DNA of 64,000 nucleotides from positions 1 through 64,000 of the forward strand of contig JAFEBQ010000019.1 of NCBI GenBank assembly GCA_018242585.1. Reading direction: 5' to 3'. Below are positions 9,585 to 11,907 of the stretch, piece after piece. How positions within the stretch are numbered: the first letter of the stretch is position 1; every line of letters starts with the position of its first letter. A model generated the notes under the pieces. It was not told the DNA's origin, did no database searches, and worked only from the letters and a program-made list of their open reading frames with translations. Position numbers and translations under genes: made by a program. Source of the DNA: Planctomycetota bacterium. Its GTDB lineage: Bacteria > Planctomycetota > Planctomycetia > Pirellulales > PNKZ01.

Positions 9585-10814
9585 ATGGACGCCCGGGAAC
9601 AACGCGGTTTAGTGATTGCCGCCCTCTGCAAGATCGACCGTAAAGGCGGCATCTTTTTAGTACCAAGCCAAAGCGGCAAGGGGCGGTATACGGTCTGCCC
9701 CGACCCCGCCAGCCCGCATTGCAGTTGCCCGGACCACGAGGCAACCGGTCAACGCTGTAAGCACATTTTTGCCGTCGAGTTCAGTATGAAGCGGGAGCAA
9801 AACAACGACGGCACGGTAACCGTTACCGAACAAGTCACCATTACCAAACGGCAGACCTACCCGCAGCAATGGGAGGCGTACAACGCGGCCCAAACGCATG
9901 AGAAGGAAAAGTTCTTGGACCTGCTGCGGGGGCTGTGCGATGGCGTTAGCGCGCCCCGTACCGGCCCCAAGGGCGGCCACCCCCGCTTGCCGTTGGGGGA
10001 TGCCGTATTTGCCGCCTGCTATAAGGTCTACAGCACGGTATCCGGCCGGCGGTTTATGTCCGACCTGCGGGCCGCGCAGGCCGCCGGCTACCTTATGCGG
10101 TTGCCGCATTTCAATTCCATCTTTAAGGCGTTGGAAAACCCCGCCCTGACGCCGGTCTTGCGGGCCATGATTGCCGAAAGCAGCTTGCCCCTAAAAACGG
10201 TTGAGCGGGACTTTGCCTGCGACTCATCGGGCTTTACTACGTCGCGGTTTATCCGCTGGTACGACCACAAATACGGGCAAGTCCGGCAACAGCACGAATG
10301 GGTCAAGGTCCATCTAATGTGCGGCGTCAAAACCAACATCGTTACCGCCGTTGAGATCCGGGATAAGCAAGCGCAGGACGCTCCTTTGATGCCGGCATTG
10401 GTAGACGCGACCGCCCGGCATTTTACGTTGCGGGAAGTAACGGGCGACAAAGCCTACGCCAGCTACAAGAACTACGATGCCATTGAGGCGCATGGCGCAA
10501 CACCCTTCATTCCCTTCAAGGAAACCATCCACACCGGCAAACGGGGCGGCTTGTGGACCAAGATGTACCACTACTTCCAATACCGCCGGGAAGAGTTCCT
10601 GGAGCATTACCACAAGCGCAGCAACGCCGAGTCGACGTTCAGCATGATTAAGGCCAAGTTCCGCGACCATGTCCGCAGCAAAACCGATACGGCGATGGTT
10701 AATGAGGTGTTGTGCAAAATCCTTTGCCACAACATTTGCTGCCTGATCCAAGAAAGCCATGAGCTGGGGATCAGCCCGGTGTTTTGGGACACCCCGGCCC
10801 CGGCCTGCTGCTAG
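9585..10814 (+). CDS. DDE transposase with N-terminal SWIM zinc finger
   Basis: The 409-residue protein begins with a SWIM-type zinc finger, HCSCPDHEATGQRCKH, giving CxCx9CxH at about residues 46-60. The catalytic part follows: first Asp in FACDSSGF, second Asp in VTGDKAYAS, and Glu in YHKRSNAESTFSMIK. That last motif fits Y-x2-R-x3-E-x6-K, the signature of IS4-superfamily enzymes. All three acidic residues are present and the frame is intact, so the enzyme is probably active. A Shine-Dalgarno-like aagggg lies about 10 bases before the ATG. The SWIM finger probably helps recognise DNA ends. A GC-rich hairpin (gccggccgccgcccggcggc) follows the stop codon. Confidence 0.92.
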   Translation: MDAREQRGLVIAALCKIDRKGGIFLVPSQSGKGRYTVCPDPASPHCSCPDHEATGQRCKHIFAVEFSMKREQNNDGTVTVTEQVTITKRQTYPQQWEAYNAAQTHEKEKFLDLLRGLCDGVSAPRTGPKGGHPRLPLGDAVFAACYKVYSTVSGRRFMSDLRAAQAAGYLMRLPHFNSIFKALENPALTPVLRAMIAESSLPLKTVERDFACDSSGFTTSRFIRWYDHKYGQVRQQHEWVKVHLMCGVKTNIVTAVEIRDKQAQDAPLMPALVDATARHFTLREVTGDKAYASYKNYDAIEAHGATPFIPFKETIHTGKRGGLWTKMYHYFQYRREEFLEHYHKRSNAESTFSMIKAKFRDHVRSKTDTAMVNEVLCKILCHNICCLIQESHELGISPVFWDTPAPACC

Positions 10815-10932
10815 GTTGCCGGCCGCCGCCCGGCGGCATTAAACTAGGGGCCGCTAAACGTACTTTGCCCGGAGGCCTTTGTCCGCAATTTGACACAATT
10901 TGAATGACGCGCGTGCGTCAAGTTTACCGCTT

Positions 10933-11084
10933 CCCAACGAACGACCAACCTGGGCCATAACAGCCCTTGTACGCAGAAGCAGGTACTTGGACCGCGCCCC
11001 CGCAAGGGGGCGTCGGCCGGTATCGTTCTGCGTGCCCCTTGGTCGGGGTGTTGGGAGCGGTCACGGTTCGGCGCTCCTTTTTTT
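10933..11084 (+). ncRNA. Structured leader RNA / attenuator candidate
   Basis: Several stems can be traced: gggc/gccc (10952-10966), acgcagaa/ttctgcgt (10971-10978 with 11026-11033) enclosing cgccccc-gcaa-gggggcg, and cccc/gggg (11035-11048). An outer stem pairs ttcccaac (10931-10938) with gttgggag (11050-11057); ccaac at 10945-10949 is an alternative partner. The outer stem shares bases 11054-11057 with the terminator stem, so the two cannot form together. This is the logic of a riboswitch or attenuator ahead of the lipoprotein gene at 11101. A self-contained small RNA is the other possibility. I recognise no known class. Confidence 0.5.
11054..11084 (+). terminator. Intrinsic terminator upstream of the element's lipoprotein gene
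   Basis: The stem ggagcg (11054-11059) pairs with cgctcc (11072-11077) and is followed at once by seven T residues (11078-11084). It is only 16 bases before the ATG of the next gene, a position expected for conditional termination rather than for the end of an upstream gene. Confidence 0.8.
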
Positions 11085-11100
11085 ATTGGGGTTTAACCAA

Positions 11101-11463
11101 ATGGTTAAGGCGTTGTTTTTGGCGGCGGTGGGGTTGTTGGCGTTAACAGGTTGCGGCAACAAAGAGGCGTTGCGGGCGACGCAGGCCGAGTACGACCAAG
11201 CGGTTGATGACTTGGCGCAGATGGAAGCGGAGGCCAAGAAAATGCAGGGGGTGCTGGATATGATCCAGCGCGTTGCCGATGCCAAGGCGGCGGCCATGAC
11301 CAAGGAGGAGCGGCTAAAGTACCTCAAAGGGCAGCTTAACGGCGAGAAAGACCCGCGGGTTGCATCCGGCGAGGAAACGCTTGCCCAAATGCAAACGCGC
11401 ATTGCCGAGCAGCGGGCTTTAATACGCGAGTTGGAGAAGCGGCTCAACCAGCTAAAAATATAG
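11101..11463 (+). CDS. Passenger lipoprotein with coiled coil
   Basis: A 120-residue protein with a short signal sequence ending in LTGC, placing the lipidated cysteine at residue 18. The rest is charged and helical, with heptad-like spacing (ATQAEYDQAVDDLAQMEAEA and ELEKRLNQL), so a trimeric or dimeric coiled coil is likely. It lies inside the mobile element and is not a transposition gene by any visible motif. The frame is open back to 10900, but that would translate through the terminator, so ATG 11101 was chosen. Expression is probably governed by the structured leader. Function unknown; entry-exclusion or phage-shielding lipoproteins are possible analogies only. Confidence 0.7.
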   Translation: MVKALFLAAVGLLALTGCGNKEALRATQAEYDQAVDDLAQMEAEAKKMQGVLDMIQRVADAKAAAMTKEERLKYLKGQLNGEKDPRVASGEETLAQMQTRIAEQRALIRELEKRLNQLKI

Positions 11464-11868: not shown

Positions 11869-11907
11869 GGTACTTATGCAGGAGTTCAACTTGCATAAGT
11901 ACCGGCG
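11869..11907. repeat. Subterminal hairpin at right end of element
   Basis: ggtacttatgca (11869-11880) is the exact inverse of tgcataagtacc (11892-11903). The longer form tgcataagtaccggcg at 11892-11907 is repeated in the same orientation at 9020-9035 near the left end. These are likely binding sites for the transposase or its SWIM domain. Confidence 0.75.

Follow-up and report, generated by a model that had tools for sequence, protein, structure and literature searches.

The window analysed here (the whole stretch of DNA, 64 000 nt) carries a structured RNA element flanked by a transposase gene (DDE_Tnp_1; 9585–10814) and a gene for a 120-aa lipoprotein-like protein (Table 1). Conservation of the RNA core runs from ACAATTTGA to a U-tract that lies ahead of the lipoprotein ATG at 11101. 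A multi-stem fold, as claimed in a preliminary description of this locus, was present, with a z-score of −4.2 and none of 200 shuffled sequences as stable; a second stability computation gave a z-score of −4.7 and the sequence again surpassed all 200 shuffles. The preliminary description was correct in placing an RNA and a T7 run here, although the conserved core begins approximately 40 nt earlier, at 10893, than was proposed. Two further observations were made in the surroundings. The transposase has a weak N-terminal match to a SWIM-like zinc finger (E=0.0055), and a perfect 12-nt inverted repeat (GGTACTTATGCA/TGCATAAGTACC, 11-nt spacer) is found at 11869–11903 before a beta-lactamase-family gene.

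Table 1. Features of the RNA element and its surroundings in the window
Feature	Coordinates	Strand	Remarks
Promoter-like TTGCCG-N18-TAAACT	10816..10845	+	consensus match only
GGAGG, Shine-Dalgarno-like	10871..10875	+	similar place in many copies
Conserved RNA core, window copy	10893..11086	+	model R1, 180.7 bits
P0, 5' hairpin (GACGC/GCGTC)	10906..10919	+	98.8 % of cells paired (102 copies)
ALT 5' strand	10928..10933	+	partner 10976–10981; state B
P1 5' strand (outer stem of the preliminary description)	10931..10938	+	partner 11050–11057; state A
P1b 5' strand (GACCAA region)	10942..10948	+	partner 11039–11045
P2 hairpin	10950..10969	+	E=0.03 and 0.04, two pairs
P3 5' strand	10971..10993	+	partner 11015–11033; state A; six pairs E≤0.02
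ALT 3' strand (GAAGCA region)	10976..10981	+	partner 10928–10933
P4 GC hairpin, GCAA loop in window copy	10995..11012	+	98.7 % paired
T* 5' strand	11007..11019	+	P4 3' strand plus start of P3 3' strand
P3 3' strand	11015..11033	+	first part doubles as T* strand
P5 hairpin	11034..11049	+	99.0 % paired; double changes at 4 of 5 pairs
P1b 3' strand (loop of P5)	11039..11045	+	tree-aware covariation
P1 3' strand	11050..11057	+	tree-aware covariation
Local hairpin ggagcg/cgctcc	11054..11077	+	possible in window copy; not conserved as helix
T* 3' strand, proposed terminator	11064..11077	+	U-tract directly after
U-tract	11078..11084	+	T7 run
120-aa lipoprotein-like gene (LTGC lipobox)	11101..11463	+	presumed regulated gene

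The RNA was found to be one member of a large family. A DNA search detected copies in 24 of 97 genomes, host included, with the copies of relatives approximately 70–80 % identical; four copies, including that of the window, were present in the host genome, in agreement with covariance model R1. This model was built on an alignment of 40 copies (A1), and a further 102 copies not used for building it formed a second alignment (A2). Searches with R1 covered 396 genomes of the order, of which 81 had copies (a maximum of six per genome), and a phylum sample of 392 genomes, of which 31 had copies, among them members of another family of the class and of other classes. Named matches were labelled Pirellula, Rhodopirellula, Planctomyces, Gemmataceae and Phycisphaerales, and roughly adding up the places listed puts the family total at about 200 copies. 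No copies were detected in nine genomes from other phyla, and no match to the RNA was found in the phage and plasmid records searched. A contig search with a short pattern gave mostly chance matches, with a strong R1 match in 17 of 129 stretches; the ten viral contigs carrying this pattern all failed confirmation, and a phage or plasmid element was rejected as a candidate. One strong copy (L126) lay on a 5.9-kb contig labelled Verrucomicrobiales, possibly as a result of transfer or misbinning. Two copies approximately 0.5–1.4 kb apart occurred at four loci (L275, L280, L117 and L163), and at three loci (L060, L069 and L078) the match was good only as far as P4, beyond which the 3' half had strongly diverged or been lost.

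Covariation was assessed in 134 non-redundant copies (mean identity 67 %) by comparing APC-corrected G scores, in the manner of R-scape, with those of 100 null alignments evolved on a FastTree tree. Eighteen pairs were detected at E<0.05, comprising five in P1, four in P1b, six in P3, one in P4 and two in P2, with none elsewhere. The five P1 pairs (97–98 % paired) had no equal score in the 100 tree-based nulls, and no null score was as high as those of the four P1b pairs (95.8 % paired) or of the P4 column pair 119–133. The stems acgcagaa/ttctgcgt (P3), the gcaa-capped GC stem (P4) and ttcccaac/gttgggag (P1), all read from the window by the preliminary description, are among those with tree-aware covariation. 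Covariation above the phylogenetic null marks the element as a structured RNA. Together with P0, which had double changes at five of five pairs in the 102 copies, these helices form a fully nested fold, state A (P0, P1, P1b, P2, P3 and P4). In the 102 copies outside the model 96.3 % of state A was paired, as against at most 47 % for slid control structures, and there were 919 double-change cells compared with 231 in shuffles; the A2 alignment had been fitted to most state A helices, but not to P1b. P2 is missing from a few copies (e.g. L077 and L080). P1b is nested inside P1 and crosses P5; for P5 to be present in state A, a pseudoknot would be needed. An obligatory P1b/P5 pseudoknot was considered and dropped, since both folds of the RNA are fully nested.

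The second fold, state B, consists of ALT, P5 and the long-range helix T*, within which P5 is nested. The lowest eight pairs of T* were paired in 320 of 320 cases in A1 and in 99.0 % in A2, with double changes at six of the eight, even though the A2 fit had used the local hairpin. Against the tree null, P values were between 5e-5 and 2e-4 for the T* pairs 133–211, 134–210 and 138–206, and the ALT column pair 41–97 was standard in 132 of 134 copies (P=5e-4). This significance holds only for pairs named in advance, and in a test over all pairs no single T* or ALT pair passed. The two strands of T* were co-adapted, with −22.4 kcal/mol for a strand and its own partner versus −18.9 for the partner of a random copy. 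The ALT helix (TGCTTC/GAAGCA) was 94.9 % paired over five pairs and competes with upper P3 and lower P1. Overall, state B was 96.1 % paired in A2, compared with approximately 51 % or below for slid controls, and had 235 double-change cells versus 58 in shuffled alignments. In 98.6 % of 142 copies, at least five of the nine nucleotides following the helix were U. The loop of T*, which encloses P5, is approximately 50 nt, and a long loop is unusual for an intrinsic terminator.

Two exclusions have been kept by evolution, one between P4/P3 and T* and the other between P3/P1 and ALT. Positions used in both states were more conserved than those used in state A only (0.87 versus 0.73, P=8e-4). The helix that ends at the U-tract, T*, is mutually exclusive with another conserved helix, P4/P3, which is the arrangement of an attenuator.

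The genes following the RNA were examined by a crude ORF call. Among 141 copies, the longest frame 250–320 nt downstream was on the same strand in 108, on the opposite strand in 28 and absent in five; the corresponding split upstream was 68:63 and the downstream bias had a P value of about 1e-12. The median gap from the RNA to the downstream gene was 20 nt. Most copies of the RNA are positioned in front of a same-strand gene, as is a cis-regulatory element. Coupling of the RNA to the lipoprotein itself was rejected, as no homologue of this protein was found in any of 145 other genomes of the order; the lipoprotein is likewise missing beside the remaining copies of the RNA. Recurrent targets were GYF_2, PEP-CTERM, dynamin-like GTPase, DnaJ-domain, kinase, YukD and zinc-ribbon proteins. 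GYF_2 proteins made up about a tenth of targets (seven of approximately 40 and five of 78) and are rare in relatives, with only about four matches per genome. Small LuxR-type HTH proteins accounted for nine of 78 targets, and in a single family of genomes a gene for a secreted-looking protein often came after the LuxR-type gene. Some copies precede a primase-like gene plus a tyrosine recombinase, an integrase or an excisionase-like gene, and mobile elements therefore use the RNA too. At three loci (L066:1373–3961, L355 and L357) a primase-like and then a tyrosine-recombinase-like gene lie directly behind the RNA; the primase-like gene of L066 has a weak Toprim match, RHS/YD-repeat-like frames adjoin the pair in L066 and L357, and these loci are possibly a mobile element of Planctomycetota. 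At a further locus (L248) a reverse-transcriptase-like frame ends 569 nt upstream of the RNA copy.

The element is probably a cis-acting, riboswitch-like transcription attenuator and one copy of a Planctomycetota-wide family. The analysis showed directly the family and its structure, the two sets of helices, a U-tract in nearly all copies and a downstream gene on the same strand; for the working of the switch, we infer transcription of the RNA, termination at T*, the assignment of ON and OFF, and the existence of a signal. A −35-like hexamer and a TAnnnT, together sigma-70-like, stood directly before the core in 26 other copies, whose RNA start is therefore expected at the core itself. In the window, a promoter-like site directly follows the transposase stop codon (10812–10814), shares TAAACT with the own-genome copy on C16 and, judged by its sequence, is expected to set the RNA start near 10852; TANNNT was enriched 85–107 nt before the core in many copies. 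In state A, P1 and P1b would close a multi-stem domain in which the P3/P4 arm holds 11007–11019. As long as P3/P4 is intact, T* would be blocked, the polymerase would pass and the gene would be ON. In state B, ALT would open the top of P3 and 11007–11019 would pair with 11064–11077. A GC-rich helix ending at a U-tract is the textbook signal for intrinsic termination, and T*, with P5 in its loop, would end transcription before the gene (OFF). The 3' strand of P4 (11006–11012) would be the hub of this switch, and a signal, whether a small molecule, a protein or folding kinetics, would choose between the states. In computed energies state A lies approximately 8 kcal/mol below state B, so a signal or a kinetic effect must favour B. 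The gene may be ON by default, with a signal favouring B, or co-transcriptional folding, in which ALT emerges first, may set the choice; the direction of ON and OFF could also be the reverse of that proposed.

The attenuator reading has two narrower forms, which differ in what would act on the RNA. In the first, a metabolite or second-messenger riboswitch proper, state A would be a ligand-binding aptamer. The complex fold, with P1, a junction and a possible P1b/P5 pseudoknot, is in line with this, as are the many unrelated targets, which include several membrane or surface proteins (GYF_2, PEP-CTERM and PrsW), as expected for a signalling ligand. However, the targets have no metabolic theme, and strong conservation is seen at few unpaired positions (just a handful exceed 90 %; the conserved unpaired bases are AAA at 51–53, CGG at 190–192 and the 5' ACAATTTGA), which is atypical for a metabolite-binding pocket. 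This form is tentatively entertained, at somewhat less than an even chance. In the second form, an RNA-binding protein would stabilize one of the states. Conservation is concentrated in paired and dual-use strands, and the 5' ACAATTTGA with P0 could be a protein site, but no common partner gene adjoins the copies and such protein control is judged rather unlikely.

A different assignment of the helices was proposed in the preliminary description, with the local hairpin as terminator and P1 as its competitor; T* would then be the antiterminator. The local hairpin can form in many copies (median −9.4 kcal/mol), and its overlap of 4 nt with P1 makes their exclusion real on paper, whereas the exclusions that evolution preserves are those of P4/P3 with T* and of P3/P1 with ALT. 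As a helix the hairpin fared poorly, with 81.8 % of its cells paired compared with 80.1 % in shuffles, no covariation against the tree null and about 25 % mismatches at two pairs. Its arms were barely co-adapted (−10.4 kcal/mol with the own partner and −9.9 with a random one), and it was weaker than −6 kcal/mol in 15 % of copies while the U-tract was kept in nearly all. The 3' strand before the U-tract is complementary less to ggagcg (11054–11059) than to 11007–11019. Once the local hairpin had failed, the long-range helix was dropped as an antiterminator, both folds being fully nested. This arrangement is considered improbable.

An independent small RNA, with a promoter and terminator of its own and with merely incidental downstream genes, was also weighed. 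The 26 copies that have a promoter directly before the core and the near-universal 3' U-tract would suit such a molecule. However, the 108:28 strand ratio and 20-nt gap of the downstream genes and the recurrence of target families speak against a free-standing molecule, and a simple small RNA would not need two conserved alternative folds. We regard this explanation as quite improbable.

Very unlikely is a leader-peptide attenuator, in which ribosomes on a short frame before the core would choose the fold. Of 139 copies, 97 had a Shine–Dalgarno-like motif approximately 40 nt ahead of the core, compared with 39 in a control window further upstream, and some copies had ATG-started mini-frames. 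However, no conserved reading frame followed the motif, with start codon, length and codons all varying, and the 26 copies that begin at the core have no long leader. Long-leader copies had a GGCC hairpin after a Shine–Dalgarno-like AGGAG. A helix between the upstream AGGAG and CUCCU in the 3' strand was rejected, as by eye it failed to track changes there.

The preliminary description had set the RNA inside a transposon. Full-length relatives of the transposase were found in four other genomes of the sample, and no second close copy of it was present in the host genome. That the RNA is part of a transposon, as an end, a guide or an internal regulator, is suggested by the end of the transposase gene 79 nt before the core and by the copies ahead of integrase or primase genes, but is highly improbable given that the other own-genome copies have no adjoining transposase, that the RNA was absent, within the fetched flank, from six full-length related-transposase loci and that no terminal inverted repeats enclose the transposase and RNA. 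At one locus (L071/G005:C124) a transposase relative and an RNA copy were approximately 3 kb apart and oppositely oriented, which is probably a chance arrangement.

Rfam 15 (4227 families) gave no match to any known class in the window, and 20 copy-bearing loci likewise had none at E≤1. The best sub-threshold match by E-value was Transposase-2 RNA (RF03015), which involved a short GC hairpin only and, at 18.1 bits versus a gathering score of 42.7 (E=0.49), was due to chance. The earlier view of a riboswitch-like or attenuator RNA before a gene is borne out by covariation, the lack of an Rfam match, the cis position and two exclusive folds, but not in its terminator hairpin or its transposon. 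The element shares with terminating riboswitches and attenuators a location in the 5' leader, two exclusive folds and a U-tract helix before the gene, but its proposed terminator helix is long-range and both its sequence and its architecture are outside the Rfam families. In T-box and other tRNA-sensing leaders the choice between terminator and antiterminator is likewise made in the leader; unlike T-box targets, those of the Planctomycetota RNA are not amino-acid genes, and it has no Rfam match. A possible earlier account of the family is the Rhodopirellula-1 motif, given in Table 1 of Weinberg et al. (2010; PMC2864571) for Proteobacteria and Planctomycetes with no Rfam number and graded there as ambiguous as an RNA and probably cis-regulatory. 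A Planctomycetes host, probable cis-regulation and the missing Rfam number are points of likeness in that table entry, whereas the listing of Proteobacteria and the ambiguous grade fit the element poorly; compared on this description alone, there is a small chance that the two are identical. As a kind, a leader attenuator, the RNA is known; as a family it appears to be new, with Rhodopirellula-1 compared by description only. The main texts of two surveys of bacterial noncoding RNAs (PMC8632094 and PMC11109978) do not mention Planctomycetota.

Regulatory RNAs of Planctomycetota are little known. The approximately 200 copies, whose alignment reveals both switching states, provide a directly testable switch, and two-state covariation of this type would serve as a test case for RNA-switch prediction. 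It is conceivable, although we put it forward only tentatively, that the family is a hitherto unreported, phylum-wide riboswitch class responding to some signal; by swapping two complete folds around a hub strand it would control, as a scattered regulon, genes for surface, GYF-domain and small LuxR-type proteins and genes of mobile elements. Its targets may reveal a signalling pathway.
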